A DNA stretch of 64,000 nt, taken from positions 49,088,760 to 49,152,759 of the forward strand of contig CP136069.1 of the NCBI GenBank assembly GCA_032622095.1, written 5' to 3'. Under the pieces are notes generated by a model. That model had not been told where the DNA came from. It ran no database searches and saw only the letters and a program-made list of their open reading frames with translations. This DNA is from Siphonodentalium dalli. Lineage: Eukaryota > Mollusca > Scaphopoda > Gadilida > Siphonodentaliidae. The translations under genes were made by a program, and so were the position numbers. Position 1 is the stretch's first letter. Every line of letters begins with the position of its first letter. Of the stretch, positions 19,775 through 56,500 are shown one piece after another.

Positions 19775-20120
19775 GCTTCAATTTAAGTTACGCAATTGAG
19801 TTATTGTCCATAAAACACTCAGGGTGATGCTGAATAGAACGCGCACGAGAATCGACTGACTCAACTCCCACATGATGTGGCGTCGACATTGAGGACTGAT
19901 TACATGTACTATATATCATAATTATGCGAAAGTTGAGGATTCAAACCGACTCGTGCCTTTAATTTAATATGTGTGCAAACAACGTAGATTGATTGCCTAT
20001 ATGCACTACTCTGGCTGGTGTAACGAGACTCCGTTGAGACTCTTCTCTCACATGTATCGCCTATATTAAATACGGAGAGTATACATGTAATACATATCAC
20101 ATGCAAACTATGAGGTTTCA
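19775..20120 (-). pseudogene. decayed tandem copies of the dioxygenase exon 3' end
   Basis: The segment at about 19955-20100 aligns with 20130-20280, the 3' end of the dioxygenase exon and its intron start. Shared minus-strand words include GGCGATACA followed by GTGAGA at the splice donor. The translated match is HVICITCILSVFNIGDT against the real exon's YSIYYMHSVPNIGDT. A further partial copy at about 19775-19830 shares the CATAAAACACTCAGG / CATAGAACACTCAGG word. Copies are spaced roughly 180 bp apart and are too diverged to be coding. Confidence 0.55.
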
Positions 20121-20224
20121 CACCAACACGCGTAGCGCCTTTAATTCAACCAACGCAAACAAAGTAGAGTCATTGCCCATAGAACACTCAGGCTCATGTA
20201 TCCAGCCTCGGGGGACGTTCTCAC

Positions 20225-20594
20225 CTGTATCGCCGATATTTGGAACGGAATGCATGTAATAGATAGAATAAGCAAACGGCGACTCCATGAAGCTCCCGTC
20301 GACATGCCAACCCGTCCGTCCCACATTTCTGCATCCCTCACCCTCAACGTTCGATACTCTGAACACGTCCGGGTGTGGAGATTTCGGGTGTTTGTAAAAT
20401 GTCGATTCAAGTTCACCAAACCACGTACTAATCTCGACTTGTCTTTCTCCGCTGACTGGGATCTGGTTTTTGAAAATCAGAATCCTATGTTTGTGCACTA
20501 AAGTCTTAATTGTATCAATACAATCTTCTGTGACCTCTGAACTCAGATCAACCCCTCTAATTTCCACTCCGAGTTTCACCGGTTGGATATCCAT
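20225..20594 (-). CDS. TauD/TfdA-family dioxygenase, one exon (partial gene)
   Basis: The 123-codon frame starting at the ATG at 20594 resembles the N-terminal half of Fe(II)/2-oxoglutarate-dependent TauD/TfdA dioxygenases, which hydroxylate small substrates such as taurine or carnitine precursors. The family-typical opening GVEIRGVDLSS lies at residues 9-19. LVHKHRILIFKNQ is at about 32-44, and GRTGWHVDGSF holds the HxD iron-ligand pair (His97, Asp99). The exon stops after NIGDT at a consensus donor (ACAG|GTGAGA, phase 1). The distal His and the 2-oxoglutarate Arg must lie on further exons that I could not find. The ATG has a favourable context (AAAATGG). An in-frame ATG at 20714 would add 40 residues. 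Because decayed copies lie alongside, the locus could itself be a pseudogene. The substrate cannot be inferred. Confidence 0.7.
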
Positions 20595-20714
20595 TTTCCT
20601 TTGTTTACATTTGTGTGAACTAAACGAAACGAAACGAATAGGTTTGCCGGAATATGTTTTTCTTGACCTTTTAATTCCCACGCTGATGACCTTTAGAAAA
20701 ATACCTCGTACCAT

Positions 20715-21856
20715 TCCAATGTTCTAAATGATTCCACAGATTTGCCGTTTACAAATATAAATACTGGTCCTGATTGCACACGAAATCACATGTACCGTAT
20801 ACTGCCCTGTGGCTGTCTGTGTACGTGACAAAAGCAAGTATCCGTATGGCTAAATAACAGACAACATCTATATCACACAATGTGGGATAACTCTACTTAA
20901 CTTACACCAGTGTAATGTCAAACTGCAAACTACATGGTATAGAGTTCTCTTCGTCGCCACACCAGATCGACAAACATGAGGCGGGTGAGTCGCGGGGAGG
21001 GCCCGGGGGGCAGTGCGCACGTACCCCAATGGCCTAATCCAGTATAGATACCTTGTGAGTTGTATACTAGTAATAGCTAGTATAATACAATTTTCAAATT
21101 TTGAGTCTTGTTTGCCTCCAATTTTGACTGCCAAAATCAACCAAATTGCACCATATTAAACCTATAAAAAAAATTTAATTGCCCCACGATTACCCCCCCC
21201 CCCCAACATCCCTGGGAAGAAAACTAAGTTACCCCCCCCCCCCCCATTTCCCCATTTCGCATTAGTATTGGTTGGAGAATCAATATATAATTTAATCTCT
21301 ACATTTTCGTTCTGACATTTCCGATTATCGGCAAGCAATATTAGCCATCGCATGAGGGGAGCTGCGCTGGTGCAGCATTAAATATGTGCCAGTGCATTCT
21401 CTTATATATTCTAGTCTAGTCCATATAATTATGTATGACATACTCGCATATATACGAGAGTGTATTGGTACAGGGCTTTCGCGAAATTTCTGGAAACTCC
21501 AGTAAAGAAAGGGTTAGAAATAACAAGAAATTATGGCATTGAAATCCATGTAAAAAAGGACGACCGTGCAGTCACGACGTACCTGCACTATACTCAGACT
21601 AATATGTGTTGACTTATATGAACGTCAAGATTTAATTAACTATAAATACTTCTTATAACGAATTACGTACACGAAGTTGGTTGCTTGTGGTAGGGGGATT
21701 GGGTCTGTACCTCATAATTATCATACTGTACTCATACATGTATCTTCCAGCCTTTCGATCGTGGCTCCCCGGGGCCATTTTTTTGACTGGCACATTATGC
21801 CCATTCTCAATTTGGATGAAATATTAGTGGTACTCGCCGGGAAAATTGGGAACATG
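20715..21856. other. spacer with two C-runs
   Basis: Two cytosine runs of about 13-14 bases lie at roughly 21193-21206 and 21232-21245. At 21363-21480 a decayed copy of the CCAATGCATTCTCTTATAT hairpin family is recognisable (GCTGGTGCAGCATTAAAT, GTGCATTCTCTTATATAT). No gene is recognised. Confidence 0.5.
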
Positions 21857-22792
21857 TCTCTATTCCGAAGGTTCGCTATTCCGAAGGTTCACTAATCCGA
21901 AGGTTCACTAATCCGAATGTTCACTATTCCGAAGGTTCACTATTCCGAAGGTTCGCTATTTCGAAGGTTTTTGTTATTTTAAAAGTTAATTCTATATTCT
22001 AAAGTATTGAGAGGGTTCTTTAGTACGAAGACTCTTTTTATGAAGGAAATAACTTAAAACATTAAAAAAATAAATGTGATTTTTGTTTTCGTGGGTTTCC
22101 TTGAGATTTAACCCGAGATTTAACCCTTTGGCGAGTAGAACGACATATATGTCGTCTATCGGCTGAGGACTAAAACGACATATATGTCGTCTATCGGCTG
22201 AGGACTAAAACGACATATATGTCGTTTTAGGAAGTGTTATTTTACGTAGACATAACTTCAATAAATCATCTGATTTATAAATGATTTACATAGGAGTTAT
22301 TTTGATTAATATAATGTCCCAAATGCTAAAGGCGGACTATAACAGTGGGGCTCTTACGGCCAATCAATACTGGAGCGCTATAACTTACTGTATAGCAGAA
22401 TAACAGAAGACCTAACTGCAATTCTGACTTTGTATTGATTTTAATGTTGATGTTTCTTTCAAGTACAGATTGCCAGTTCGGGTAGAATGCATCTCTAACT
22501 CGTAGTTTATTTCAGTCATTGTGTTTTCAACTTTCTATAATATTAAAATGATAAACTGATACTGTCTTCTTGCTATTAATAACCGACATCTGGGACAAAT
22601 TAGATATTAGATTGGGGTGTATAAATGTACGGGGGCGCAAATTTTGATTCATTTCTGGCTAAAAACTCCCATAATAGAAAACCTTCGGAATAGCGAACCT
22701 TCGGAATAGTGAACCTTCGGATTAGTGAACCTTCGGATTAGTGAACCTTCGGATTAGTGAACCTTCGGAATAACGAACCTTCGGAATAGAGA
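21857..22792. mobile_element. foldback element with 16-bp tandem arms
   Basis: The left arm (about 21857-21972) is roughly seven copies of a 16-bp unit ATTCCGAAGGTTCACT. The right arm (about 22679-22792) is the same unit in reverse complement (GTGAACCTTCGGAATA). Terminal inverted repeats made of short tandem units recall Drosophila FB elements. The ~700-bp core has no transposase, but it contains the three-copy ACGACATATATGTCGT repeat annotated separately. Confidence 0.75.
22138..22230. repeat. 35-bp tandem repeat of a 16-bp palindrome
   Basis: The perfect palindrome ACGACATATATGTCGT occurs three times, separated by CTATCGGCTGAGGACTAAA. Each copy could bind a dimeric protein or form a small cruciform. 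It lies inside the foldback element. Confidence 0.8.
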
Positions 22793-24157: not shown

Positions 24158-25640
24158 TTATCTATGGGGGATCCATTGAATATAGACTAAAAATATGAGG
24201 ATGATATGATACTCATCCCCGAGTTCCTCGTTACATAGTGAACATTTTCTATCTGAGTAGTCCTTGTTGGTCCATGATCCGGACTCTACTGGTAGATGAT
24301 GGTTTCTCGTTGTGAACTTAAGTAAGCTGGCTACGGTTGTTTCGTTATCTAATGCAATGTATGTTTCTTTTGAGAATTCGGTTTTATTAATTCTATAGAA
24401 TGCACATTTATCAGAGCTTCCTATATCGCTTTGCCATGATTGTATATATGCGTCGCCCATTCTGCGTTTAATGAGCGTATTATAGATAGAGGGGGTGGGG
24501 GTTGATTGGTCGATCCAGATATTGGAGAGACAACGACTATTTATATTTGTATTCTTATACTGATTGGGAGGATGCCGGTTTCTCCGAAGATAAAGGCGGA
24601 GCTCGTTGTTTTGCGTACATTGAGTGCGAATTTAAGGAACCATTTCTCGAGCTTTTCTAGACAGGTGGTGCTCCCGAAACCCCATATTTCGAATCCATGT
24701 ATCATTACTGGGGCGATTGATTTATCGTATATTTCTAAGATACTATCGTACGAGAGATTGTGTCTTCTGGTCTTATTTATAAGCGCATACATTGCATTTT
24801 TCGCGTTTTTACATCTCATATTTCGTTCTTTGCTAAAATTACATTTTATGTTAAACCATGTGCCCAAATATTTAAAGCTGTCAACAATATCGATGTCATT
24901 TCCGTTTATGTTAAAGGCGAGTGGATTTTTGTGTTTTCTAGTATTGCCAAAGACTACAATTTTAGTCTTACTTGTATTTATATTCAGCTTCCAAGTGTTG
25001 CAGTATGTAGCAAAATGATTCAGGGAATTTTGTAGCTCAGCTGGGGAGTTTGCAAAAAGGGCGGTGTCGTCAGCGTATACTAGTAAGAAAATCTTGATGT
25101 ATATTCCTGTGTTTAAATAACTAATTCTGCCGATATCAATAGCGTTACATCGACCGTTATGCAAATATTAATCGAGGTCGTTGATGTACAGAGCAAAACG
25201 TATCGGCGATAACCCACTCCTTGTTTTAAGCCAGTCTGGCTTGTAAAATAGCCTGAATAAACGTCGGTCAGGGCACACATTTTGAGATATTTGTATGTAT
25301 ACATACTTTTTATAATTTCCAAGATTTTTCCGGAGATACCGGAAAGTAGGAGTTTTCTCCACAGGCCCTCTCGCCAAACGCTATCAAATGCTTTGGAGAC
25401 ATCTATGAAAGCGCAATATATAGGTTTCTTTTCATTAATATCATAATTTGAGTGAGGGCGTATAGGGAAAATGTGTGGTATGTTGTACTGTATCCTTTCC
25501 GAAACCCGGCTTGGTGGTACCCCCAGTGATGTTTTCTTCTAATGCTTCGAAAATTAAAATATTCCTGGAATTCATTGCTGGTAGGTATTGACCTATTTTC
25601 AAATTTCCCATCAAGTTCCCGGACTAATTTCCAAAATTAT
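24158..25640 (-). pseudogene. non-LTR retrotransposon reverse transcriptase, frameshifted
   Basis: Minus-strand pieces in changing frames reconstruct the order of a non-LTR RT. GFRKGYSTT lies near 25510, FIDVS.KAFDSVWREGLWRKL (across a frame change) near 25340-25420, and the catalytic LLVYADDTALFANSP near 25060. It continues with NTSKTKIVVFG, FKYLGTWF and an APVMIHGFEIWG-type block. The Cys-rich end (CSLCNEELGDEYH) lies near 24210. The longest clean frame is 207 codons (25164-24541). Stops and frameshifts separate the blocks, and sequence upstream of the GFRKG block is missing, so the copy is dead. It differs from the RT relic at 13.5 kb. Confidence 0.85.
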
Positions 25641-26398
25641 CTGCTTGATTCCCCCTTTAAGTTGTGTATTTTCTTGCCCATATTTATGTTATATGTACGT
25701 TTGCTTGATAATGGCGTGTGTGTATATGAGTTTCTACTTTCAATCATTTTTTTTCGGATTAAAGTTCGATGGATGTTTATTATAATTCTTTCGCGCCTTT
25801 CGGTACGCTGTCCTCGAGTGGACACAATCACGTGAAAACCAAGGCATACCTAACGGTTTTTTACTTCTGGTTCGCTTTGTATTCTTCCGCGTCGTGTCTT
25901 GTTTTCGATAGTTTGTTGCGTTCGTAAGGATTACTTTCAGTTCATTGTAAGCTATATATGTTAAGATTTTCCGTTGCGTTATGGTCGTGTGTCGGCTGAT
26001 CTAGGAGTGAGTTATACTTCGAATGGCGATCAGTGCTATCGCAAATTAATTTAGAGATAAAATACGACGAAAGGTAACGCCAACAGCAACAAATTAGGTA
26101 ACGTGTGGTAGTTGACGTTCGGCAACATACATATATACGTATTTGCAAATAGGTCATCATGTTTAGTCATGCAAATACACTTATTATATAACAGCATCCT
26201 GGTTACACGTCGTGGAACTATGTTTGTTTACATTTGTGATGACATATGTTGGGGAATTCCACTAAAGGAATAGGCACCACCACTCATCATATACAAACGT
26301 TTTGAATAAATTCCGTTGTTGTAACTTGATGATACGGGGACCGTCGAATCGGATTATGTATCGTTAAAATCAATGCTAGCTCATCATTTTCATCAAAG
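25641..26398. other. spacer before the satellite
   Basis: No gene is recognised. The last ~70 bp before the array (GTCGAATCGGATTATGTATC then GTTAAAAT) resemble the right end of the foldback element at 5465-6409 (TCGAACCGGATTGAGTACC then TTTAAAAT). The satellite may therefore abut, or have grown from, such an element. Confidence 0.35.
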
Positions 26399-27085
26399 GA
26401 AATAGATGTATTGTATAAGGATATAGATGTATTGTATAAGGATATAGATGTATTGTATAAGGATATATATGTATTGTATAAGGATATAGATGTATTGTAT
26501 AAGGATATAGATGTATTGTATAAGGATATAGATGTATTGTATAAGGATATAGATGTATTGTATAATGATATAGATGTATTGTATAATGATATAGATGTAT
26601 TGTATAAGGATATAGATGTATTGTATAAGGATATAGATGTATTGTATAAGGATATAGATGTATTGTATAAGGATATAGATGTATTGTACAATGATATAGA
26701 TGTATTGTATAATGATATAGATGTATTGTATAATGATATAGATGTATTGTATAAGGATATAGATGTATTGTATAAGGATATAGATGTATTGTATAAGGAT
26801 ATAGATGTATTGTATAAGGATATAGATGTATTGTATAAGGATATAGATGTATTGTATAAGGATATAGATGTATTGTATAAGGATATAGATGTATTGTATA
26901 AGGATATAGATGTATTGTATAAGGATATAGATGTAATGTATAAGGATATAGATGTATTGTATAAGGATATAGATGTTTTGTGTAAGGATATAGATGTATT
27001 GTATAAGGATATAGATGTATTGTATAAGGATATAGATGTATTGTGTAAGGATATAGATGTATTGTATAAGGATATAGATTTATTA
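26399..27085 (+). repeat. 21-bp satellite, block 1 (~33 units)
   Basis: Units of 21 bp containing TAAGGATATAGATGTATTG are arranged head to tail without interruption. Variants include TAATGATATAGATG, TATATATG and TGTAAGG. The plus strand has almost no C. The same satellite resumes at 27652. The long open frames are consequences of the 21-bp period. Confidence 0.97.
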
Positions 27086-27490
27086 CATATCTATCAACGT
27101 AATTCGCATGATCGCACGACGTTCCAGGCGTGTGATAATTCTCAGAATCGCACTAGTGCAATCTGTCGACGGAACTATTTCATTCAGTGTTGTTAGACTG
27201 GCTTTCGCCGTTACTATTTTAACGTTTTCAACTTTTCAACGCAAGGGCGACAACCCGCTTGCCGAAATCGCAGCGCGCTGATTGGGTTATATTTTGGGAA
27301 TATTTGGGAAAACCCATGCAATTAACACCTTTGCGCGGGTCAAGATGGGTCAAGTTCACTCGCGGATAGAAGGGCTTCCTGTTGCGTTAACCCTAAAATG
27401 CCGTTAAAACTCAATTAAATTCACATTTTCTGTACCGGAGATGTACGATTGTGAGTCAACTTACTATGATACGTAGATATGTAATAAAAA
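27086..27490. other. unique spacer splitting the satellite
   Basis: Non-repetitive sequence of about 400 bp, more GC-rich than the satellite (for example GCGCGCTGATTGGG near 27275). No gene is recognised. Confidence 0.5.
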
Positions 27491-27653
27491 TAGAACCGTA
27501 TAAGTGTCTGAATTTAGACGAAATTATCGCACTCGATTTGTTGGCGGAACACGATACCTCTCGTGCGGGACTGCGTCCCGCACTCGAGGTATCGCTCCGC
27601 CAACAAATCTCGTGCGATAATTTTGTCTAAATTCAGACACTCGTTCGGTTCTA
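27491..27653. mobile_element. 163-bp foldback (MITE-like) at the array edge
   Basis: The arms pair TAGAACCG with CGGTTCTA, GTGTCTGAATTTAGAC with GTCTAAATTCAGACAC, ATTTGTTGGCGG with CCGCCAACAAAT, and GTGCGGGAC with GTCCCGCAC around a TGC centre. The right arm ends exactly where the second satellite block begins. It contains no coding sequence. Confidence 0.75.
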
Positions 27654-30600
27654 TCTATGTATTGTATAATGATATATATGTATTGTATAAGGATATAGAT
27701 GTATTGTATAAGGATATAGATGTATTGTATAAGGATATAGATGTATTGTATAAGGATATAGATGTATTGTATAAGGATATAGATGTATTGTATAATGATA
27801 TAGATGTATTGTACAATGATATAGATGTATTGTATAATGATATAGATGTATTGTATAAGGATATAGATGTATTGTATAAGGATATAGATGTATTGTATAA
27901 GGATATAGATGTATTGTGTAAGGATATAGATGTATTGTGTAAGGATATAGATGTATTGTGTAAGGATATAGATGTATTGTGTAAGGATATAGATGTATTG
28001 TGTAAGGATATAGATGTATTGTATAGGGATATAGATGTATTGTATAAGGATATAGATGTATTGTATAAGGATATAGATGTATTGTATAAGGATATAGATG
28101 TATTGTATAAGGATATAGATGTATTGTGTAAGGATATAGATGTATTGTATAATGATATAGATGTATTGTATAATGATATAGATGTATTGTATAAGGATAT
28201 AGATGTATTGTATAAGGATATAGATGTATTGTATAAGGATATAGATGTATTGCATAAGGATATAGATGTATTGTATAATGATATAGATGTATTGTATAAG
28301 GATATAGATGTATTGTATAAGGATATAGATGTATTGTGTAAGGATATAGATGTATTGTGTAAGGATATAGATGTATTGTATAAGGATATAGATGTATTGT
28401 GTAAGGATATAGATGTATTGTATAATGGTATAGATGTATTGTATAAGGATATATATGTATTGTATAAGGATATAGATGTATTGTATAAGGATATATATGT
28501 ATTGTATAAGGATATAGATGTATTGTGTAAGGATATAGATGTATTGTGTAAGGATATAGATGTATTGTGTAAGGATATAGATGTATTGTATAAGGATATA
28601 GATGTATTGTATAAGGATATAGATGTATTGTATAATGATATAGATGTATTGTACAAGGATATAGATGTATTTTACAAGGATATAGATGTATTGTATAATG
28701 ATATAGATGTATTGTATAAGGATATAGATGTATTGTATAAGGATATAGATGTATTGTATAAGGATATAGATGTATTGTATAAGGATATAGATGCATTGTA
28801 TAAGGATATAGATGTATTGTATAAGGATATAGATGTATTGTATAAGGATATAGATGTATTGTATAAGGATATAGATGTATTGTATAATGATATATATGTA
28901 TTGTATAAGGATATAGATGTATTGTATAAGGATATAGATGTATTGTATAAGGATATAGATGTATTGAATAAGGATATAGATGTATTGTATAAGGATATAG
29001 ATGTATTGTATAATTATATAGATGTATTGTATAAGGATATATATGTATTGTATAAGGATATAGATGTATTGTGTAAGGATATAGATGTATTGTATAAGGA
29101 TATAGATGTATTGTATAAGGATATAGATGTATTGTATAAGGATATAGATGTATTGTATAAGGATATAGATGTATTGTATAAGGATATATATGTATTGTAT
29201 AAGGATATAGATGTATTGTATACGGATATAGATGTATTGTATACGGATATAGATGTATTGTATAAGGATATAGATGTATTGTGTAAGGATATAGATGTAT
29301 TGTGTAAGGATATAGATGTATTGTATAAGGATATAGATGTATTGTGTAAGGATATAGATGTATTGTATAAGGATATAGATGTATTGTATAAGGATATAGA
29401 TGTATTGTATAAGGATATAGATGTATTGTATAAGGATATAGATGTATTGTGTAAGGATATATATGTATTGTATAAGGATATAGATGTATTGTATAAGGAT
29501 ATAGATGTATTGTATAAGGATATAGATGTATTGTGTAAGGATATAGATGTATTGTATAAGGATATAGATGTATTGTGTAAGGATATAGATGTATTGTATA
29601 AGGATATAGATGTATTGTGTAAGGATATAGATGTATTGTATAAGGATATAGATGTATTGTGTAAGGATATAGATGTATTGTATAAGGATATAGATGTATT
29701 GTATAAGGATATAGATGTATTGTATAAGGATTTAGATGTATTGTATAATGATATAGATGTATTGTATAAGGATATAGATGTATTGTATAAGGATATAGAT
29801 GTATTGTATAAGGATATAGATGTATTGTATAAGGATATAGATGTATTGTATAAGGATATATATGTATTGTATAAGGATATAGATGTATTGTATAAGGATA
29901 TAAATGTATTGTATAAGGATATAGATGTATTGTATAAGGATATAGATGTATTGTATAATGATATATATGTATTGTATAAGGATATAGATGTATTGTATAA
30001 TGATATAGATGTATTGTATAAGGATATAGATGTATTGTATAAGGATATAGATGTATTGTATAAGGATATAGATGTATTGTATAAGGATATAGATGTATTG
30101 TATAAGGATATATATGTATTGTATAAGGATATATATGTATTGTATAAGGATATAGATGTATTGTATAAGGATATAGATGTATTGTATAAGGATATAGATG
30201 TATTGTATAAGGATATAGATGTATTGTATAAGGATATATAAGTATTGTATAAGGATATAGATGTATTGTATACGGATATAGATGTATTGTATAAGGATAT
30301 AGATGTATTGTATAAGGATATAGATGTATTGTATAAGGATATAGATGTATTGTATAAGGATATATATGTATTGTATAAGGATATAGATGTATTGTATAAG
30401 GATATAGATGTATTGTATAAGGATATAGATGTATTGTATAAGGATATAGATGTATTGTATAATGATATATATGTATTATATAAGGATATAGATGTATTGT
30501 ATAATGATATATATGTATTGTATAAGGATATAGATGTATTGTATAATGATATATATGTATTGTATAAGGATATAGATGTATTGTATAATGATATAGATGT

Positions 30601-33600
30601 ATTGTGTAAGGATATAGATGTATTGTACAAGGATATATATGTATTGTATAAGGATATAGATGTATTGTATAATGATATAGATGTAATGTATAAGGATATA
30701 GATGTATTGTACAAGGATATAGATGTATTGTATAAGGATATAGATGTATTGTATAATGATATAGATGTATTGTATAAGGATATAGATGTATTGTATAAGG
30801 ATATAGATGTATTGTATAAGGATATAGATGTATTGTATAAGGATATATATGTGTTGTATAAGGATATAGATGTATTGTATAAGGATATAGATGTATTGTA
30901 TAATGATATATATGTATTGTATAAGGATATAGATGTATTGTATAATGATATATATGTATTGTATAAGGATATATATGTATTGTATAAGGATATAGATGTA
31001 TTGTATAATGATATATATGTATTGTATAAGGATATAGATGTATTGTATAAGGATATAGATGTATTGTATAATGATATATATGTATTGTATAAGGATATAG
31101 ATGTATTGTATAAGGATATAGATGTATTGTATAATGATATATAAGTATTGTATAAGGATATAGATGTATTGTATAAGGATATATATGTATTGTATAATGA
31201 TATATATGTATTGTATAAGGATATAGATGTATTGTATAAGGATATAGATGTATTGTATAAGGATATAGATGTATTGTATAATGATATATATGTATTGTAT
31301 AAGGATATAGATGTATTGTATAAGGATATAGATGTATTGTATAATGATATATATGTATTGTATAAGGATATAGATGTATTGTATAAGGATATATATGTAT
31401 TGTATAATGATATATATGTATTGTATAAGGATATAGATGTATTGTATAATGATATATATGTATTGTATAAGGATATAGATGTATTGTATAAGGATATAGA
31501 TGTATTGTATAATGATATATATGTATTGTATAAGGATATAGATGTATTGTATAAGGATATAGATGTATTGTATAAGGATATAGATGTATTGTATAAGGAT
31601 ATAGATGTATTGTATAATGATATATATGTATTGTATAAGGATATAGATGTATTGTATAATGATATATATGTATTGTATAAGGATATAGATGTATTGTATA
31701 ATGATATATATGTATTGTATAAGGATATAGATGTATTGTATAATGATATAGATGTATTGTGTAAGGAAATAGATGTATTGTACAAGGATATATATGTATT
31801 GTATAAGGATATAGATGTATTGCATAAGGATATAGATGTATTGTATAAGGATATATATGTATTGTACAAGGATATAGATGTATTGTATAAGGATATAGAT
31901 GCATTGTATAAGGATATAGATGTATTGTATAAGGATATAGATGTATTGTATAAGGATATAGATGTATTGTATAAGGATATAGATGTATTGTATAATGATA
32001 TAGATGTATTGTATAAGGATATAGATGTATTGTATAAGGATATATATGTATTGTGTAAGGATATAGATGTATTGTATAAGGATATAGATGTATTGTATAA
32101 GGATATAGATGTATTGTGTAAGGATATAGATGTATTGTATAAGGATATATATGTATTGTATAAGGATATAGATGTATTGTGTCAGGATATAGATGTATTG
32201 TATAATGATATAGATGTATTGTATAAGGATATAGATGTATTGTATAAGGATATAGATGTATTGTATAAGGATATAGATGTATTGTATAAGGATATAGATG
32301 TATTGTATAATGATATAGATGTATTGTATAATGATACAGATGTATTGTATAAGGATATAGATGTATTGTATAAGGATATATATGTATTGTATAAGGATAT
32401 AGATGTATTGTATAATGATATAGATGTATTGTATAAGGATATAGATGTATTGTATAGGATATAGATGTATTGTATAAGGATATATATGTGTTGTATAAGG
32501 ATATAGATGTATTGTATAAGGATATAGATGTATTGTATAAGGATATAGATGTATTGTATAAGGATATAGATGTATTGTATAAGGATATAGATGTATTGTA
32601 TAAGGATATATATGTGTTGTATAAGGATATAGATGTATTGTATAAGGATATAGATGTATTGTATAAGGATATAGATGTATTGTGTAAGGATATAGATGTA
32701 TTGTGTAAGGATATAGATGTATTGTGTAAGGATATAGATGTATTGTGTAAGGATATAGATGTATTGTGTAAGGATATATATGTATTGTGTAAGGATATAG
32801 ATGTATTGTGTAAGGATATAGATGTATTGTATAAGGATATATATGTATTGTGTAAGGATATAGATGTATTGTATAAGGATATAGATGTATTGTGTAAGGA
32901 TATAGATGTATTGTACAATGATATAGATGTATTGTATAAGGATATAGATGTATTGTATAAGGATATAGATGTATTGTATAAGGATATATATGTATTGTAT
33001 AAGGATATATATGTATTGTGTAAGGATATGTATTGTATAAGGATATAGATGTATTGTGTAAGGATATATATGTATTGTATAAGGATATAGATGTATTGTG
33101 TAAGGATATAGATGTATTGTATAAGGATATAGATGTATTGTATAAGGATATAGATGTATTGTATAAGGATATAGATGTATTGTATAAGGATATAGATGTA
33201 TTGTATAAGGATATAGATGTATTGTATAAGGATATAGATGTATTGTATAAGGATATAGATGTATTGTATAAGGATATAGATGTATTGTATAAGGATATAG
33301 ATGTATTGTATAAGGATATATATGTATTGTAAAAGGATATAGATGTATTGTGTAAGGATATATATGTATTGTGTAATGATATAGATGTATTGTGTAAGGA
33401 TATAGATGTATTGTATAAGGATATAGATGTATTGTGTAAGGATATAGATGTATTGTATAAGGATATAGATGTATTGTATAAGGATATAGATGTATTGTAT
33501 AAGGATATAGATGTATTGTATAAGGATATATATGTATTGTATAAGGATATAGATGTATTGTGTAAGGATATAGATGTATTGTGTAAGGATATAGATGTAT

Positions 33601-36189
33601 TGTATAAGGATATAGATGTATTGTATAAGGATATATATGTATTGTATAAGGATATAGATGTATTGTGTAAGGATATAGATGTATTGTATAAGGATATAGA
33701 TGTACTGTATAAGGATATAGATGTATTGTATAAGGATATAGATGTATTGTATAAGGATATATATGTATTGTATAAGGATATATATGTATTGTATAAGGAT
33801 ATATATGTATTGTATAAGGATATATATGTATTGTATAAGGATATATATGTATTGTATAAGGATATATATGTATTGTATAAGGATATGTATTGTGTAAGGA
33901 TATATATGTATTGTATAAGGATATATATGTATTGTATAAGGATATAGATGGATTGTATAAGGATATAGATGTATTGTATAAGGATATATATGTATTGTAC
34001 AAGGATATATATGTATTGTATAAGGATATAGATGTATTGTGTAAGGATATAGATGTATTGTACAAGGATATAGATGTATTGTATAAGGATATAGATGTAT
34101 TGTATAAGGATATAGATGTATTGTATAAGGATATAGATGTATTGTATAAGGATATAGATGTATTGTATACGGATATAGATGTATTGTGTAAGGATATAGA
34201 TGTATTGTGTAAGGATATAGATGTATTGTACAAGGATATAGATGTATTGTATAAGGATATAGATGTATTGTATAAGGATATAGATGTATTGTATAAGGAT
34301 ATAGATGTATTGTATAAGGATATAGATGTATTGTATAAGGATATAGATGTATTGTATAAGGATATAGATGTATTGTATAAGGATATAGATGTATTGTATA
34401 AGGATATAGATGTATTGTACAATGATATAGATGTATTGTGTAAGGATATAGATGTATTGTATAAGGATATAGATGTATTGTATAAGGATATAGATGTATT
34501 GTATAAGGATATATATGTATTGTATAAGGATATAGATGTATTGTATAAGGATATAGATGTATTGTATAAGGATATAGATGTATTGTATAAGGATATAGAT
34601 GTATTGTATAACAATATAGATGTATTGTATAAGGATATAGATGTATTGTACAATGATGTAGATGAATTGTGTAAGGATATAGATGTATTGTATAAGGATA
34701 TAGATGTATTGTATAAGGATATAGATGTATTGTATAAGGATATAGATGTATTGTATAAGGATATAGATGTATTGTATAAGGATATAGATGTATTGTATAA
34801 GGATATAGATGTATTGTATAAGGATATAGATGTATTGTGTAAGGATATATATGTATTGTACAATGATATAGATGTATTGTATAAGGATATAGATGTATTG
34901 TATAAGGATATAGATGTATTGTACAATGATATATATGTATTGTATAAGGATATAGATGTATTGTATAAGGATATAGATGTATTGTATAAGGATATAGATG
35001 TATTGTACAATGATATAGATGTATTGTGTAAGGATATAGATGTATTGTGTAAGGATATATATGTATTGTACAATGCTATAGATGTATTGTACAAGGATAT
35101 AGATGTATTGTACAATGATATAGATGTATTGTATAAGGATATAGATGTATTGTATAAGGATATAGATGTATTGTATAAGGATATAGATGTATTGTATAAG
35201 GATATAGATGTATTGTATAAGGATATAGATGTATTGTATAAGGATATAGATGTATTGTATAATGATATAGATGTATTGTGTAAGGATGTAGATGTATTGT
35301 GTAAGGATATAGATGTATTGTGTAAGGATATAGATGTATTGTATAAGGATATAGATGTATTGTACAATGATATAGATGTATTGTATAAGGATATAGATGT
35401 ATTGTATAAGGATATAGATGTATTGTATAAGGATATATATGTATTGTATAAGGATATAGATGTATTGTATAAGGATATAGATGTATTGTGTAATGATATA
35501 GATGTATTGTGTAAGGATATAGATGTATTGTGTAAGGATATAGATGTATTGTATAAGGATATAGATGTATTGTGTAAGGATATAGATGTATTGTATAAGG
35601 ATATAGATGTATTGTATAAGGATATAGATGTATTGTATAAGGATATAGATGCATTGTATGAGGATATAGATGCATTGTATAATGATATAGATGTATTGTA
35701 TAAGGATATAGATGTATTGTATAAGGATATAGATGTATTGTATAATGATATATATGTATTGTATAAGGATATAGATGTATTGTGTAAGGATATAGATGAA
35801 TTGTATAAGGATATAGATGTACTGTATAAGGATATAGATGTATTGTATAAGGATATAGATGTATTGTATAAGGATATAGATGTATTGTATAAGGATATAG
35901 ATGTATTGTATAAGGATATAGATGTACTGTATAAGGATATAGATGTATTGTATAAGGATATAGATGTATTGTATAAGGATATAGATGTATTGTGTAAGGA
36001 TATATATGTATTGTGTAAGGATATAGATGTATTGTATAAGGATATAGATGTATTGTATAAGGATATATATGTAATGTGTAAGGATATAGATGTATTGTGT
36101 AAGGATATAGATGTATTGTATAAGGATATAGATGTATCGTATAAGGATATAGATGTATCGTATAAGGATATAGATGTATTGTATAAGGA

Positions 36190-37080
36190 TATATATGTAT
36201 TGTGTAAGGATATAGATGTATTGTATAAGGCTATAGATGTATTGTATAAGGATATATATGTATTGTGTAAGGATATAGATGTATTGTATAAGGATATAGA
36301 TGTATTGTATAAGGATATATATGTATTGTATAAGGATATAGATGTATTGTGTAAGGATATAGATGTATTGTATAAGGATATAGATGTATTGTATAAGGAT
36401 ATAGATGTATTGTATAAGGATATAGATGTATTGTATAAGGATATAGATGTATTGTGTAAGGATATAGATGTATTGTATAAGGATATAGATGTATTGTGTA
36501 AGGATATAGATGTATTGTGTAAGGATATAGATGTATTGTATAAGGATATAGATGTATTGTGTAAGGATATAGATGTATTGTGTAAGGATATAGATGTAAT
36601 GTGTAAGGATATAGATGTATTGTGTAAGGATATAGATGTATTGTATAAGGATATAGATGTATTGTATAAGGATATAGATGTATTGTATAAGGATATAGAT
36701 GTATTGTATAAGGATATATATGTATTGTGTAAGGATATAGATGTATTGTATAAGGCTATAGATGTATTGTATAAGGATATATATGTATTGTGTAAGGATA
36801 TAGATGTATTGTATAAGGATATAGATGTATTGTATAAGGATATATATGTATTGTATAAGGATATAGATGTATTGTGTAAGGATATAGATGTATTGTATAA
36901 GGATATAGATGTATTGTATAAGGATATAGATGTATTGTATAAGGATATAGATGTATTGTATAAGGATATAGATGTATTGTGTAAGGATATAGATGTATTG
37001 TATAAGGATATAGATGTATTGTGTAAGGATATAGATGTATTGTGTAAGGATATAGATGTATTGTATAAGGATATAGATGT
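36190..37080 (+). repeat. 525-bp higher-order duplication in the satellite
   Basis: A run of variant units including the rare AAGGCTATAG unit (its C at 36231) is repeated 525 bp later (C at 36756), which is 25 units. The surrounding order of TATATATG and TGTAAG variants is the same in both copies over at least about 18 units. This shows a recent 25-unit duplication. Confidence 0.85.
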
Positions 37081-37430
37081 ATTGTATAAGGATATAGATG
37101 TATTGTATAAGGATATATATGTATTGTATAAGGATATATATGTATTGTATAAGGATATAGATGTATTGTATAAGGATATAGATGTATTGTGTAAGGATAT
37201 AGATGTATTGTATAAGGATATAGATGTATTGTGTAAGGATATAGATGTATTGTGTAAGGATATAGATGTATTGTATAAGGATATAGATGTATTGTATAAG
37301 GATATAGATGTATTGTATAAGGATATATATGTATTGTATAAGGATATATATGTATTGTATAAGGATATAGATGTATTGTATAAGGATATAGATGTATTGT
37401 GTAAGGATATAGATGTATTGTATAAGGATA
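37020..37430 (+). repeat. 210-bp higher-order duplication in the satellite
   Basis: A ten-unit pattern with two adjacent TATATATG units (at about 37111 and 37132) recurs 210 bp on (about 37321 and 37342), with the same TGTAAG variants around it. Confidence 0.8.
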
Positions 37431-38682
37431 TAGATGTATCGTATAAGGATATAGATGTATCGTATAAGGATATAGATGTATTGTACAAGGATATATATGT
37501 ATTGTATAAGGATATAGATGTATTGTGTAAGGATATATATGTATTGTGTAAGGATATATATGTATTGTATAAGGTTATATATGTATTGTATAAGGATATA
37601 GATGTATTGTATAAGGATATAGATGTATTGTGTAAGGATATAGATGTATTGTATAAGGATATAGATGTATTGTGTAAGGATATAGATGTATTGTATAATG
37701 ATATATATGTATTGTATAAGGATATAGATGTATTGTGTAAGGATATAGATGTATTCTACAAGGATATATATGTATTGTGTAAGGATATAGATGTATTGTG
37801 TAAGGATATAGATGTATTGTATAAGGATATAGATGTATTGTATAAGGATATAGATGTATTGTGTAAGGATATAGATGTATTGTATAAGGATATAGATGTA
37901 TTGTGTAAGGATATAGATGTATTGTATAATGATATATATGTATTGTATAAGGATATAGATGTATTGTGTAAGGATATAGATGTATTGTATAAGGATATAG
38001 ATGTATTGTATAAGGATATAGATGTATTGTATAAGGATATAGATGTATTGTATAAGGATATAGATGTATTGTATAAGGATATAGATGTATTGTATAAGGA
38101 TATAGATGTATTGTATAAGGATATAGATGTATTGTATAAGGATATAGATGTATTGTATAAGGATATAGATGTATTGTGTAAGGATATAGATGTATTGTAT
38201 AAGGATATAGATGTATTGTATAAGGATATAGATGTATTGTATAAGGATATATATGTATTGTATAAGGATATAGATGTATTGTATAAGGATATAGATGTAT
38301 TGTATAAGGATATATATGTATTGTACAAGGATATATATGTATTGTATAAGGATATAGATGTATTGTGTAAGGATATAGATGTATTGTACAAGGATATAGA
38401 TGTATTGTATAAGGATATAGATGTATTGTGTAAGGATATAGATGTATTGTATAATGATATATATGTATTGTATAAGGATATAGATGTATTGTGTAAGGAT
38501 ATAGATGTATTGTATAAGGATATAGATGTGTATTGTATAAGGATATAGATGTATTGTATAAGGATATAAATGTATTGAATAAGGATATAGATGTATTGTA
38601 CAATGATATAGATGTATTGTACAATGATATAGATGTATTGTATAAGGATATAGATGTATTGTATAAGGATATAGATGTATTG

Positions 38683-41350
38683 TTTGTTCTTCAGTGGCGA
38701 TTAGAATATCCTGGAAATATCGGTGTTTGTAGACATAGTTCACTGTTCTGTTACAGTATTGTTTACAAAAGACGGACTTCAACACGCTGTATTTCTTCTG
38801 TTGGGCTTATTGCTAATGGAAATAACAACAAAGTTATTTGTTAACATCATTATTTGTGCTAATGGTTTGACAATGTTTGCATCATTTGTTCCGCTTTACC
38901 CACCGCTGGTGGGACTCCTTTTGTCTGCTTATTTATCCGGAAACCCCATCCAGATGAATAATAAACAATTCCAATATATACGTGTTCTATAACATAATGC
39001 ATGGGGGAATCCATTTGGTATTGAAAGGGTTAAATGATATCGAGGAGACACAAGTGCTCCCTCGACCCACCAAGTGTGGATATTGTACTTGAGTGGTATT
39101 ATTCTTTCTCAGTTCAACTCAATATATTTACTGTAAAGGCGTGTTAAATATAGAATCATATTTACGACAATATAATGGATACACTCAATCTGAGAGGATT
39201 TGGCTATTTGTGGACATCTTCGCAGTTTTGGACCATGCCATAACCAGAAATGTTACTTCTCACGTCGTTAGCTTTGGCAAAGATGCACACAGAAAAAAAG
39301 TTGTCAAAATATATATATGAAAATCAATTGTATAAATTCATTCGAATTGCGATGTGTGCGAAAACTGATTTGTTGTGGCAATGCGCTAACATTTTGTTTC
39401 CGATGCAACACCTTAACCAAACGAATATATCCCCGAGCATTACAGGATCTCCACCCCCTTTTAACAAATTAAATATACTCCATTTTTTTCTTCAAATATA
39501 TGAACTGTCTAGGAAGCGAAGATTGTTTTTTATTAGGTTCAGAAGTTAAACAATCAATAGATTCATTTATTAATTTTCATCAAATTTGTACGTCAACATA
39601 TAAATCATATCCCCACTAGCAGAAGACCGAAGTGCTATCCTATAATCTCAAGATGTTATCCTATACCCCCAGCACTGCGTCATGGTGTCAGTTTGTCCAT
39701 TCGGTATCCTTGAGCGTTATTTTAACATAAACGGTTGGTGATATTGTAGCTTTAATAATGTATTAGGACTAACCGTGTTGCTCGTGATTGTGGTAAAAAG
39801 TCGTAAAAATAATCCTTCGCATCTCACTCGAGGAGAAAAACCGTACGCTACTCTTGCAGAACAGTTAAATGTTGTCTATGTACACCAGTTCATAGGCGCA
39901 TTTGTTTCAAACTGAAACTCAAACCAAACGATAACTTCAAATCACACCTAGAAATATTCCGTATTTTGATATACTTTAGTTCCAATTTCAACGAATCTAG
40001 GTAGAAATACCAACATTGCGAATCTTAGTTATTAATACACCATTACATAAATTTTAGCTCTCATGTTGCTAGTTTTGGTAAAGATGCATTTTATATGCAA
40101 GGTTCCGGTCTTATTATGGCACCATATGGTATTTCTATGACGAAATGCCTGCAACACTTACCGTGCAAACTACCCAGTGTATGAACGTACCGTTACAGTT
40201 TTATAAATGTCTTTGCCCAGAACATGTTCCACAATTTCCATTTATGAAGTGTCACCCCAAGAAATGAAAGCACGCTCTTGTGACACATATTCCATAGATG
40301 TCATTCACCCTTTGAACATGTATTGTGCCACAAAGTATACACGCAAGAAATTACAAAACAAAACACACAGAAACTTATCTGAATATAAGTAAAATGGTAC
40401 ACATGCTGCAGGGGATCTGAACATGAATTACGAAACTTAGACGAGATTCATTTCATATTTCCCAAGATATAAAGCTGGTATAAGTTTCAACAAACGAGAT
40501 GGTTTATTAATATAAAGTAAGTGAGTGTAGCAAACTGTCCAAATTGCTTGTCTAGCAGTCTAAATATTGTAAAATTGCAGATCAGCTAAGAGATTTACCG
40601 CAAATTACGATCCAAATAAACAACTGTATTGTGTATTTACAGACAAATAGTATACCCCATGCATCTTCAGTTGTATCTGTATTTTATTCACAGAATAGCA
40701 ATTTGTCGTCTTGAAATCTGGATTTATAACAAACAATATTTTTTGTTGTAATTGTGGCCCGGAAGAGAAAGACCATCTTTAAGCCGAACAATAACTATAA
40801 ATAACACCCAGAAGATATTCCCCTAATCTGGTATATTGTAGTTACAATTTAAAAAATTCATCACGAGAGCTGTGCTGGTGCAGCATTAAATGTATTGTGC
40901 CAGTGCATTCTCTTATGTCTGCAAGTCTCCCATATATAGGAAGCCTCGCATACATAAGAAAATGCATTGGCTTATACAGGGTCAAGGTCAATATTGTTAG
41001 GTCAATGTATTCTCTTATATATGCGAGTCTTCCTATGACAGACTCGCATACATGTATATAAGAAAATGCATTGGCACACGGGTTTCGTAAAATTTCAGGA
41101 AGATCCATGCAGTAATGGAGGTTTAAGATAATATAGGTACAAGCAGAACATACCAATTTTGCGAACCTGAGTTACTACACAGTTCCCAAAATCACGGGAT
41201 AACCACTTCATTACCGCTTTGCATTGGAAATTATGACACAGAGAAGGGTGGAAATCCCGATCGAGCACACTCTAGAAACCTTTCTGCAATGATATAATGT
41301 GTATAGTACGTCTGTCTATATTCTACTTGGTAATACACATGTAGCTCGTA
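38683..41350. other. downstream flank of the transporter gene
   Basis: No separate gene is recognised. The segment 39675-39865 is a dispersed repeat that recurs, about 190 bp long, inside the hairpin MITE at 41730-41905 (shared TCGGTATCCTTGA and CGCATCTCACTCGAGGAG). Words at 39246-39290 and 40050-40170 (CTTTGGCAAAGATGCA / TTTTGGTAAAGATGCA, GACGAAATGCCTGC) belong to a decayed family also seen at 52310-52440 and 58480-58600. The part next to 41350 should hold the transporter's 3' untranslated region; a clear polyadenylation site could not be fixed. Confidence 0.45.
40862..41095. repeat. CCAATGCATTCTCTTATAT hairpin family, two units
   Basis: It contains GTGCATTCTCTTATGTCTGC paired with CATACATAAGAAAATGCA, then a second hairpin with ATGTATTCTCTTATATATGC and its complement. 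Related copies are at 21363-21480, 54723-54800, 55263-55663 and 56575-56735. Confidence 0.65.
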
Positions 41351-50500: not shown

Positions 50501-53500
50501 GCATGCAATTGTGGACAAAATAACACAATTATCGGAAACCAGTCACAAAGATGTGCATTTGTCCATGAACTGAACCACTCGACAACTGATTCAAATAGGT
50601 ATTGCTATATCCTTTCATGTATAACATTAGAGTAATTTCCCTTTACACATTAACAAGTGTTCGCTTTCACGCACAACAAACGCAGATCTATAGTACTGGA
50701 TTTTGTCTGCTCTTGTAATTGACGGGAAATCGCACACTATTAAATTTCCGATATCCATTGTATTCGACACGTTCTCCGCAAGTCAAAACACGGCTGTTAG
50801 GAATCTATAGTACATGGCCTATGTGGAACACTGAATACCAGAGGTGTCCAAATTAAAATGAAAACTTATAAAGGAATTACTTTATGGTACATGTACGTCA
50901 AATCGAGTTTAGTTTTGAACAGGAAAGTTGATAGCTAGAGGTATTTTTTCGGTGGTGAATGCTCAACTGTAAATTTACAACGATATACGCCCCCTTGAAC
51001 GAGGCCAACTTCCTAACTCCGGTACGTTCCTTACTGGTATATATGTAAATGTTCACCTTAAAATGCATGAGTTGATGAATTAAGGTAGATTTAACTTGAA
51101 CGATCTGGCTGAACACTCTCGAGTATTGGTCTCAAACAGCACTCTTTGTTGTAACGTGATAGTGTTAAGTGTTTAAAGTGACTCAAAAAATGGGCAACGT
51201 GTGTGACACCATCTGACAGTGGTGTGACTTCTTAACACCAGTTAGCTTCAAATTTGACCACATGTGAACGAACATGGTTTGAACTGTGTATATTTATCTA
51301 AATTATAAAGCAAAAACAAATTATAAATCATATACATGTATGGCGATTTAAAAAGTATACACCTATTAAAGATACGCAAGTGTATTTCGTTTCTACGAAC
51401 TTTCTGTGTTGCTTCCATGAAATTGCAGAATCGACATTGTCGCATAATCGGAGTCCATTGGAGGTTATTAGTATAAATTGGTGAAGATTCTCCGATTCTT
51501 ACCTTATAATTATTATTTGTCCCATATCCAGCGAAAATCCACGAATCTGTCCAATGAAAATCACAGCCACGGCTTCGTACAATGCAGTTCCATCCATGTT
51601 TATTGTTGCACCGATTGGCGCCATAAACCCAGTCACCCTCGGGTCAATTCCATTGTTCTCTTCCAAGCACCTCATTGTCACAGGCAGAGTAGCTGAACTG
51701 TGGTGCGAAACAGAATCAACACGAAATTCAGAAAACTCAAATAAAAAAAACACAGAAAAGATAGAGAAATAATTCAAATATCCCAATTTTACAACATCGG
51801 TATTTTTAGAGTCCATTCACCACACACAATCTTAGTTGGAATGTTCACAGGTATAAACTATATTTCCCAATTTTGGAACGGACTGGACAATTCATTGCTC
51901 AATTGATCAGATAACACGAAGAATAAAATGTAAGCCACATGTCACATTATTCAGTTAAAAAAAGGGAACTCTGATCGAGACGATATGAGTGAAAATAGTC
52001 GACTTTGGTAGTTCCGATATAGTTATGTCTCAGCATTACAAATTACATGCATTTTGTACACATTTTGTATCATAAGGTGTTCACTGCGAAATTAGGTTGC
52101 CTTTAATATACACGTATGTTCGGGGAAGTAAGAGCTGGAACTGTCCATCATTATACAAGAATTTCACGAAAATAATTATGTCATGTTTTAATCCTCACAC
52201 CGCGGTGCGTGAATTCAAAATTGAGGGACAAATAGTATATGCGCGAATTGTAATGTTGTACGAGTAAGATATGGTATTGATGTATGAGTCGACCAGTTTT
52301 TGAATAATATAATCCGCACACAGATATATTTGTACGGTATTTTTTGCCGGCATTTCGTCATAGAAAAAGCTAGAATATGAACGGCAATATGCATATTCAA
52401 TGCATATTTACCAAAGCTATAACAACATAAGAACTAACATTTCGACATTTCAACATGACTGTATATATAATTATGTGCTATACTAACACACTGCCTTAAA
52501 ATATATCTATGATTGATTCTTGCGATATATTTGCATGATATTTACAGGCAAATTTCGTCGATAGCTTCGCTACTACAGTGAAAGTACATGTACATAGTTT
52601 TTACTTGTTCATGTAGTTTACTGCGGTATATAAATTATGCATTGTATATACACAAAATCCAGCAAAAGAATACCTGGCAATGTTGCGTGTATATGAACGT
52701 ATCCTTACCTGGATGCCGTCCCGAGAGCAGTAACCAAAGCTTGCACCACGCCATACATGAATTTGAATGGATTTTTCCGAGTAAATATCAGGTATAGTAG
52801 AGGAAGTGATATGAATCCATGAACAGCCAGTCCCGCCATAACCGTAATGAAATAATACAGGAGTTGCTGGAATACCTCCTCGGGGTCATCCATATCCATG
52901 ACCTTTGCTGCCACCAGAAATAATATTCCGATAGGCGAATACCTTAAATGCATCATTGCCTAAAATAGCACGCAACACTCGTGGTTTGTAAGCAGTTTGT
53001 GATTCCAATGAAATGTCAACGTCGCTGTGTGGTACAAGTCTAGAATAGTCACCTTTCTCATAATGAACTACGACAGATAATTATTACGAATAGGTTACTA
53101 CGCCACTAGAATGTGTGTTCTTTCTGTTTGTTGCCGTTTTTCCCTAATCGTTACGATAACGGTTCGGATTCTCAACAAAACTCACAAATACATCATATAG
53201 AAATAAGTTCGCGATCGTTTCTCACGTATGTAGCGCATGCGAACCTGTTGTATTAAATTCCACCTAATACGCACACGTTTGACTACCAAAAGATAGTCAG
53301 CCGGGGTTCACGATTAGATGGATATTGGCATATAATCGCGACCACGTGAGGCACGCGTGGTTTCGATTGAATATCATATTTAATCCGAAGGGTAATAACT
53401 CTATAAAGAATGTACTTTGACGAAATAACGGCTCTTTAAAACACTTCTTCAAAATATCTCTGTATTTTCCTTTTTCGCTCTATTTCGCTATTTCACTGTA

Positions 53501-56500
53501 TTTTCCTATTTCGGTTTTCACTATATTTCGCCATTTTGCTGTATTTTCATATTTCGCTTTTTTCGTTGTATTTTATATTTCGATAATTCGCTATATTTGA
53601 CATATTATGGGATATGAGATTATATGATCTGATGATATCCAATATTATGATATTCAATCGAACATCAAGTGCCACCTGATGCCACCAGCCATCGAATAGT
53701 GAACCCCGATTACATATAGTTTGCTATATAATCCTTGGCGTATTGGCTGTAAATTCATGTTATGTATTTGAGTGAATTCAATATTATCAGACCTGGTATT
53801 ATCATCCTTTTCAGATGCGCTCATGTGTGGTTCAGATGTGCAATCAGCTACATCTACGTATTTGACAACCTGACGGATGCGCGGATATTTCCTTCGTGTC
53901 TATAACATAATCCGCCCGATATATACACGGAGCCATTCGGTTGGAAATGGGAACGTTTAACCGAAGAAAGAAAGCGACGCCCAGTCCATGTTGCCCATAC
54001 GTGCTTATTATGATAATTATATGTATGTTAACAACTACAGAAGGCGAACGAGAGTACCAATTTGCAAGGATGACGCTGAAATCACACATGCGATGTCACG
54101 AGAAGCAAACAGACCACGCTATTTAGCAATGTGTAACTAGTATGTTCGTTGTTCAGTTTTGGACACAATTGCTGCGGGTTGGATAATTATAAATGTAAAC
54201 GCCACGTCTTGTTACTACTCTACACAGCTAGATGCCGATTATTACAGGAAGTTAATATGAACATCATTATACATACATGATTATATAAGCACTCGAATTT
54301 CATGTATTGAGATTTATACTGTTAGGACATGTCTATTTTCATTTCCTTGTTAGCATTTTTTATACAAATAAAATTTAAATATATACAATGCTGTATTCGC
54401 TTATTACTGTTCATTTCAATAGGAGTAACGTTGATACGAATATACTGGAACAACGCACAGGAAAGTACACTCAAGAAATCACTGGATTATTAATCAAACC
54501 AAATCATCAAAACCAATTTTGGTTTTGGGAATATTATCAAAGATATGTAACCCAATTGGTTTTGATCAAAACCAAATTCTCAAAACCAAATTTTATATTT
54601 TGAGGATTTGGTTTTGGTCAAAATCACATTTTGAAGGCTTCGATCATATTCAAAGTGGGTTCCATATTTGTGACAACGTTCAAGACTAATTTCGGGTTCG
54701 TGTGAAATCAAATGTTTAAGAGTGTAAGCCAGTAGATTCTCGTCTATATGCGAGGCCCCCTATGGGATACTCGCATATATAAGAGCATACACTGGCAATT
54801 GCTCTGCAATGCTGCACCAATGCAGCTCCAATGATAAATGGTTAAAACCCGCTTGTAACGCCTTACCATATCGCTAGTGTGACCAACTGCATCGTAAGCA
54901 ACGTAAGAGCGTCGAATAGGTCTTTGAGTGGTTTTCCCTTTTCCTCTAGTCGCCCGATAATAACGCCAGCGAACACACAGAAGACCACGAGACCAAGGAT
55001 GTTAATCCCCTCCACTGTCTGGATTTCAACTATATTCTCGACACCTGTTGTCTCATCTGTGGAGATATCAGTTATATAGGTTTCAGGGGCAGGAAAATAC
55101 GTCACTAATGCAATATCTAAAACGACGCTTCATACGTTGGGGTACCTGATATCTGGAATTCATGAGGTGTGTGAGCTAGATATAATTATATTGCACGAGT
55201 TATTGTACTTATGAGTGAAGATATGTTGTTTTTTTTTAGATATTACGAAAATTCATTATCTATTAACCCTTTACCCAACAAACCGGCCAAAACCGGCCAA
55301 ATAAAGCTTCAACAGCCTAAAATATCTTCGGTCTGTCTCAATAGAACCATACACATATGGATATCATTGGAACCGGCTCCTTGACCACATTGTGATAGTT
55401 ACAGTTATGCCCTGTGCCAATGCATTCTCTTATATATGCGAGTCGACCATTGGTCGCCTCGCATATATAAGAGAATGCATTGGCCTAAAAAAAAATCTTT
55501 TTTTAACACTTTTTACCATTTTTTCTTACATTCTTTAACAATTTTATAATTTTTAATGTGTTAAGCCAATGCATTCTCTTATATATGCGAGGCGACCTAT
55601 GGTCGACTCGCATATATAAGAGAATGCATTGGCACAGGGCCCTTCTGTTGGGTAAAGGGTTAAATGGTTGAGTTGTGTTTGATGTTCAAAATTGGGGCAC
55701 ATCGATACTTATTATCCTTGTATATATCAGGTACATAAATTAGAGATTTTAATGGTCACTACTTTTTTAATGAATTGTGAATTTCCAAAGTTCGTGTTTC
55801 AATTTATCCCACCAGGAAAACGTTTATATAAGTTATAACCAGTGTCCGCGCTGGACCAAAATTTACTTTTGCCAAATAAATTGCCAAATGAAAATAGTTT
55901 TTGCCATATTATTCTAGCATTTGCCAAATGCTATCCGACACTCGCGGTTTGAACGACTTTTGATATCGATAGAAAAGCAGTTAGTTGATTATACACGCAT
56001 CTCTATTGTGATTTATCATACAACAATAAGCCAATCACCGAACAATACAATGGTAGTAGGGTTGCTTCACCAGAGGAGCACAACACATGAGGATTAGCTA
56101 TGTAAACACCACCACCACACTAAATACTAGTAATCCCTCCAACCATTGGTACTAATGCTATGAGATTAACTGCATCTTAATAGAGGTGTTAACTTTTCCT
56201 AAACCTTATAAAACACTACTTACATAATTATTTTGTAAGATTTTCCTGAAATGAATGGTATTGTTTGAACAATATTTTCAACTTTCTTGAGGAATTAAAA
56301 AGTGACTTGCCAAACATTTTGCCAAATGAAAATATTTCTTGCCAAATGTGAATTATTTTTGCCATTGGCAAATTTGGCAAGTGGCAGTGCGAACCCTGGT
56401 TATAACATATTAAAAATCAAAACTGCTTTGGGTTAGAGACTTAATTTGTGATGCAGGTTCCTGGCGCTGTATGCAGCAGTATACTATGGAGAGGGCAATA

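Follow-up and report, generated by a model that had tools for sequence, protein, structure and literature searches.

A long 21-bp tandem array, nearly devoid of cytosine on one strand, at a single locus of the scaphopod Siphonodentalium dalli

The window considered here is the whole stretch of 64,000 nucleotides that was analysed on contig CP136069.1 of the Siphonodentalium dalli assembly (GCA_032622095.1), read on the forward strand, and the coordinates of its features are collected in Table 1. As far as exons were found, a long tandem array is located there between a gene of the TauD/TfdA dioxygenase type and one of the sodium:dicarboxylate symporter (SDF) type, at least 5.7 kb away from the dioxygenase exon. 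With its in-frame methionine ahead of the domain, we infer that this exon is the first coding exon of its gene, and a 5′ non-coding exon of the same gene may possibly lie beyond the array. Transcription from the minus strand through the array would yield a nearly G-free RNA, which is the less favourable direction for the formation of R-loops.

Table 1. Position, strand and supporting evidence of the features discussed in the text (positions are those of the window)
Feature	Position	Strand	Evidence
TauD/TfdA-type dioxygenase exon	20118..20723	-	Pfam TauD, E 1.6e-13
Reverse-transcriptase pieces of a retroelement	24541..25538	-	Pfam RVT_1 in 24541-25167 and 25113-25538
Dispersed repeat ending just left of the array	26016..26369	+	Genome matches to the left flank
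Left border common to the single-copy relative on contig C8	26364..26396	+	91% over 33 bp; C8 piece 9616-9648
Left part of the 21-bp array	26396..27079	+	Tandem Repeats Finder array 26396-38683; segmentation; outside the interval of the preliminary description
Dispersed-element copy of 579 bp inserted in one array unit	27080..27658	.	Genome matches; unit split 12/9 without loss
Open frame of 2474 codons	27651-35075	-	ORF list; exists only through the nearly G-free strand
Main part of the 21-bp array	27659..38683	+	Tandem Repeats Finder, composition, segmentation
Open frame of 2776 codons	30476..38806	-	ORF list; by-product of the nearly G-free strand, no gene
Block duplication within the array	36160..37085	+	Exact over 401 bp, the copies being 25 units (525 bp) apart
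Right border common to the single-copy relative on contig C8	38671..38903	+	73% over 246 aligned columns; C8 piece 9649-9892
Sodium:dicarboxylate symporter (SDF) exon	51499..51816	-	Pfam SDF, E 3e-22
Probable further SDF exon	54863..55129	-	Pfam SDF, 27.6 bits (cut-off 27.9)

The array announced by a preliminary description of this DNA is real. Tandem Repeats Finder (TRF) sees a single 21-bp array, with consensus AAGGATATAGATGTATTGTAT (8 A, 8 T, 5 G and no C) and 91% matches, amounting in the assembled sequence to about 558 units placed head to tail, that is, 11.7 kb of repeat. It begins 1.26 kb to the left of the limit first assigned to it (27652), and the foreign stretch that had been taken as its left border is in fact a dispersed element lying inside it. 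Segmentation of the two parts gave 33 and 526 pieces respectively, a count that includes the incomplete pieces found next to the insertion and where the array ends, with only four pieces displaying indels and 48 distinct unit types spread along the main part. An 18-base piece of the unit finds 519 matches in the window with at most one mismatch, where 100 dinucleotide shuffles found a mean of 0.00 and at most 0. Rfam returned no match across the window at gathering scores.

The composition is as extreme as had been claimed. Between positions 27653 and 38683 the plus strand is made of 4095 A, 4308 T, 2577 G and 51 C (11031 bases), with an AT content of 76% in the array and a GC skew ranging from 0.920 to 0.983 over the ten 1-kb intervals between 28001 and 38000. 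CpG is likewise nearly absent, with 8 occurrences in the same 11031 bases, and this scarcity stands against the surroundings, since the observed over expected ratio of CpG is 0.99 in the window outside the array and 0.82 in 13 sampled pieces of the genome. The prediction that a transcript would be nearly free of C or nearly free of G, depending on the strand, follows from composition alone.

Within the array, a copy of a dispersed element interrupts one unit. A 569-bp query taken from it (27084-27652) matched essentially over its full length, at 92-100% identity, in all of the 40 places scored out of 1301 candidates, the copy of the window included. The 12 bases that precede the element and the 9 that follow it make up one complete unit, so that it most likely landed in an array that already existed. 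This high-copy element bears, close to its right end, an inverted repeat of 59 nt; it showed no clear duplication of a target site.

How widespread is this repeat? The preliminary description, which named it a satellite, had suggested that the assembly be searched for further arrays. In the whole genome of 2.2 Gb (9 contigs), the exact unit is present 302 times in the forward orientation and never in reverse, and the window accounts for 302; a 42-mer of the array, with up to three mismatches, gives 535 matches genome-wide and again 535 within the window. No copy was therefore found beyond the window at up to three mismatches in 42, the sensitivity being that of the exact unit and of this 42-mer, with runs of N that could conceal copies. 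Satellite is the wrong word for an array that sits at one locus. It does share with satellite families the fact of being long, head to tail, homogeneous and non-coding; at the sensitivity of the search, however, it lacks the abundance and the many genomic arrays that define them, its count in the genome being its count in the window.

The features of the locus rather suggest a very long minisatellite, a VNTR restricted to a single locus and ordinary in kind. The unit of 21 bp, in some 558 copies, falls within the range of about 10-100 bp of such repeats (15-100 bp in the abstract of PMC3618361), and minisatellites are specific to a locus, as is the case here by count, both for the exact units and for the near-exact 42-mers. 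The single head-to-tail locus, the variant units and the block duplications complete the likeness. It is the length that sets it apart: in a sample of 199.7 kb (13 arbitrarily placed 10-kb pieces, an 18-kb region of contig C8 and the window outside the array), TRF reported 98 arrays after merging of overlaps, 89 of them with a period of at least 10, and the longest array whose period does not exceed 30 bp spans 216 bp, to be compared with about 11.7 kb. Among human loci, as parts of the literature present them, the rare fragile sites FRA16B (33-bp unit) and FRA10B (42-bp unit) are similar in being single, AT-rich and kilobases long, and FRA10B is described in a passage of PMC9714581 as fragile above 5 kb; with 76% AT over 11.7 kb the scaphopod array resembles these expanded AT-rich minisatellites of several kilobases. 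It differs from them by its shorter unit, by an AT content lower than the 91% of FRA10B, and by the lack of a stable single-strand fold in three of its pieces. No description of this array came up in the portions consulted of the literature on strand asymmetry and origin of minisatellites, on long 21-bp arrays and on variant repeats.

The borders of the array suggest where it came from. When the right flank was used to search the genome, 40 of 2260 candidates being scored, a single place besides the window reached the border of the array, on contig C8, and the other matches listed among those 40 concerned another part of the flank, with the look of dispersed sequence. Around that place an 18-kb piece of C8 was compared with the window, and in it the two borders abut around one copy of the core, ATAGATTTATTGT on C8 versus ATAGATGTATTGT in the window; TRF found no 21-bp array in the 3.2-kb locus that surrounds it, and the remaining matches of the 18-kb piece are not collinear, leaving no sign of a longer homology. 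Because the borders close upon one core copy, growth on the spot from a single founder is the most likely origin of the array. Since the C8 locus is without a few bases beside the core, comparison of the two sequences makes of it a cousin, not an ancestor. A gapped pattern devised for further single-copy sites had no match, which is no evidence, because it required at least two bases at a place where the C8 relative has none. A source in the dispersed repeat whose end is immediately to the left of the array was considered and rejected: the array is absent from all 11 copies of this repeat that were fetched, the best match to a unit in these copies (36 bp, 78%, E 0.053, beside the end of the repeat in piece L017) being taken as chance, and the border shared with C8 extends beyond the end of this repeat.

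We can thus propose, with considerable confidence, that the locus is a minisatellite that grew in place from a C-free founder by slippage or unequal exchange. A short intergenic piece, of which a diverged single copy would survive on C8, would have been duplicated head to tail, then amplified to some 558 copies through slippage or unequal exchange, in a process that would have included duplications of blocks of 10 and 25 units. With a founder lacking C, the plus strand would have come out almost without C, and no maintenance would be required. Such a locus presumably varies in copy number between individuals and has presumably no function. The traces of the duplications are visible: besides the 25-unit block of Table 1, a second exact internal duplicate covers 300 bp at a distance of 210 bp (10 units). 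Identity within the 25-unit block duplication is 98.5% over 525 bp, where 320 other pairs of blocks average 75.1% and reach 97.3% at most, a contrast that is only rough because many of these other pairs are out of register through indels.

The map of variants is less eloquent. Substitutions average 0.61 per piece, and four changes dominate (20A>G, 101; 10G>T, 91; 3G>T, 65; 21T>C, 27). Like variants cluster weakly, the autocorrelations of these four at a lag of three units being 0.08, 0.16, 0.11 and 0.10, and at a lag of one unit -0.04, 0.04, 0.17 and 0.10, two of which are near zero (shuffles have a standard deviation of about 0.043). This weak clustering speaks against growth in place, as does the fact that the borders shared with C8 are limited to 73% on one side and to 33 bp on the other. 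Slippage alone, moreover, does not account for why this array, among short-period arrays, grew so long.

Does the absence of cytosine call for an explanation of its own? Among the 51672 21-mers of the window outside the array, 2.2% are without C and a further 1.9% without G; with about 4% of the surrounding 21-mers lacking one or the other, a C-free unit needs little explaining. In the 199.7-kb sample, six of the 89 arrays with a period of at least 10 have a consensus without C, without G or without both, and all six are at most 68 bp long. Nor is there any sign, among rare variants, of a depletion of changes that create C: T>C accounts for 11 runs and A>G for 8, and changes creating C in any manner for 20 runs, against 9 creating G. 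When the four common variants are included, A>G rises to 76 runs and T>C to 34, an excess that could reflect a bias toward G and that we take as the spread of two variants. The C-free character was most likely inherited from the founder motif that was amplified. A founder effect suffices, and we may take the locus as a reminder that extreme strand asymmetry can arise in this way.

Several other ways to understand the array have to be weighed against growth from a founder. The length could be an artefact, the assembly having expanded a far shorter locus, a kind of error to which long tandem arrays are liable; an artificial expansion should however leave long exact copies, and the longest exact internal duplicate of the main part is the 401-bp one (lags in multiples of 21 bp were scanned up to 7 kb), while the 48 unit types along the array and the single dispersed element placed off-centre also speak against it, which makes it very unlikely. 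That the array codes for a repeated peptide, (KDIDVLY)n on the plus strand or a huge frame on the minus strand, might be suggested by a period equal to seven codons, by indels as few as four units in 559 pieces and by the two giant minus-strand frames of Table 1. Yet stops and frameshifts cut the plus frame into several fragments, with 72, 414 and 506 stops in the three plus frames, and the minus frames run through different repeat peptides where indels shift them, so that no single frame is open throughout and there is next to no chance that the array is a coding one. Stops are rare in all three minus-strand frames, since TAG and TGA can scarcely arise on a strand with almost no G; frames thousands of codons long are the result, a trap for gene finders. 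The preliminary description had further proposed that the period, two helical turns at 10.5 bp per turn, would present the same face in every unit and thereby position nucleosomes. When steps within the unit were compared with 5000 shuffles of it, WW steps were unphased at 10.5 bp, the amplitude of the second harmonic being 1.79 versus a shuffle mean of 2.79 (P 0.73), and no phasing appeared for AA/TT/TA (P 0.84), TA (0.32), AA/TT (0.96) or SS (0.65); the weak dinucleotides of the unit are not in helical phase, and such positioning is extremely improbable. Of the preliminary interpretation there remains the near absence of C and of CpG; the same-face nucleosome signal finds no support, and satellite is a misnomer for a single locus. 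As for a hairpin-forming repeat, it was tried and rejected: three 105-nt pieces of the array, two from the plus and one from the minus strand, have a minimum free energy of 0, and for each of them none of the 200 shuffles folded less well; a piece from the 45-bp array nearby was folded as a comparison.

What does distinguish the array, in a respect that the preliminary description had not raised, is the weakness of its duplex, that is, its ease of unwinding. With nearest-neighbour parameters, the mean energy is -1.058 kcal/mol in the array versus -1.276 outside; at scales of 500, 1000 and 2000 bp each window of the array is weaker than each window outside it within the 64 kb, whereas at 150 bp there is overlap between the two ranges, with 0.035% of the windows from outside weaker than the mean of the array. 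TA steps make up 23% of the array versus 9% outside. This brings to mind base-unpairing regions (BURs), which a part of PMC12490858 defines as clustered segments of 25-50 bp in which one strand consists of A, T and C alone and the AT content is 65% or more, typically over 200-300 bp; the same part reports that breaking this context at unchanged AT content abolishes unwinding and the binding of mouse SATB1. A simple scan showed that 203 of the 215 array windows of 300 bp are covered to at least 90% by such segments at 65% AT or more, as compared with none of 1023 windows outside the array and none of 2535 in the 13 sampled pieces; coverage by half is reached in 10 of the 1023 and in none of the 2535. 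The genome also holds SATB-type exons, two matches to CUTL and two to ULD, all on the minus strand of contig C3 and within about 116 kb. For one CUTL piece, CUTL was the sole family above the cut-off and human-type SATB1 structures were the sole PDB matches. The ULD matches lie upstream of those to CUTL, which is the domain order of SATB proteins. The two CUTL matches may represent a duplicated exon or a second gene, since they cover overlapping parts of the profile.

It is tempting to imagine that the array is also a giant base-unpairing or matrix attachment region, which would unwind under superhelical stress, bind a SATB-type protein and anchor a domain from the SDF to the TauD gene. The ATC context is indeed nearly uninterrupted on a minus strand without G, the duplex is weak at 500 bp and above, the segment coverage has no counterpart outside, and the exons on C3 provide a candidate partner. 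Against this, the composition follows from the founder alone, the rare changes that create C and would break the context are not depleted, and the published work is on mouse SATB1. The likeness to SATB1-bound BURs, as far as the parts of the source consulted describe them, thus resides in ATC context, AT content above 65%, weak duplex and SATB-type exons in the genome, and the difference in 11.7 kb of one repeated unit, read here from the assembly, compared with the 200-300 bp of a typical BUR. We regard this reading as unlikely; that a naturally amplified, near-perfect ATC element of 11.7 kb between two genes would act as a strong domain anchor for the animal's own SATB-type protein appears, on these sequence data, decidedly doubtful. 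Being about function only, the base-unpairing reading is compatible with an origin in place. Were it true, the locus would offer a natural sequence of unusual length on which to test the recruitment of SATB-type proteins by ATC context alone.

Growth in place from a C-free founder, to come back to it, is of interest in its own right. The single-copy relative, both borders, the map of variants and the inserted element are all visible here, which makes growth from one founder traceable and the locus a clean case of a minisatellite.

The window and the sampled pieces contain other repeats. A second minisatellite, at 14789-16569, consists of about 39 copies of a 45-bp unit with a higher-order period of 361 bp and a mild skew of G over C. 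Two arrays of a 16-bp unit, at 21857-21971 and 22678-22792, are inverted with respect to each other about 0.7 kb apart, their arms of 115 nt having 97% complementarity, and are possibly a foldback-type element with ends built of repeats. Several arrays of ACCTGGGTG-like motifs occur at two distant places, 2854-3502 and 16631-16831. A tandem repeat of about 121 bp occupies 43380-45358; similar consensus units were met in two of the 13 sampled 10-kb pieces (L036 and L042), which makes a dispersed repeat composed of tandem units probable. A short C-free array at L043:2385-2452, with a 32-bp unit containing GGATATAGATGT, resembles part of the 21-bp unit, probably by chance. Finally, three short GGTCCGGGCT arrays start at 47846, 48372 and 48898, exactly 526 bp apart, a spacing that suggests tandem duplication of a 526-bp block.
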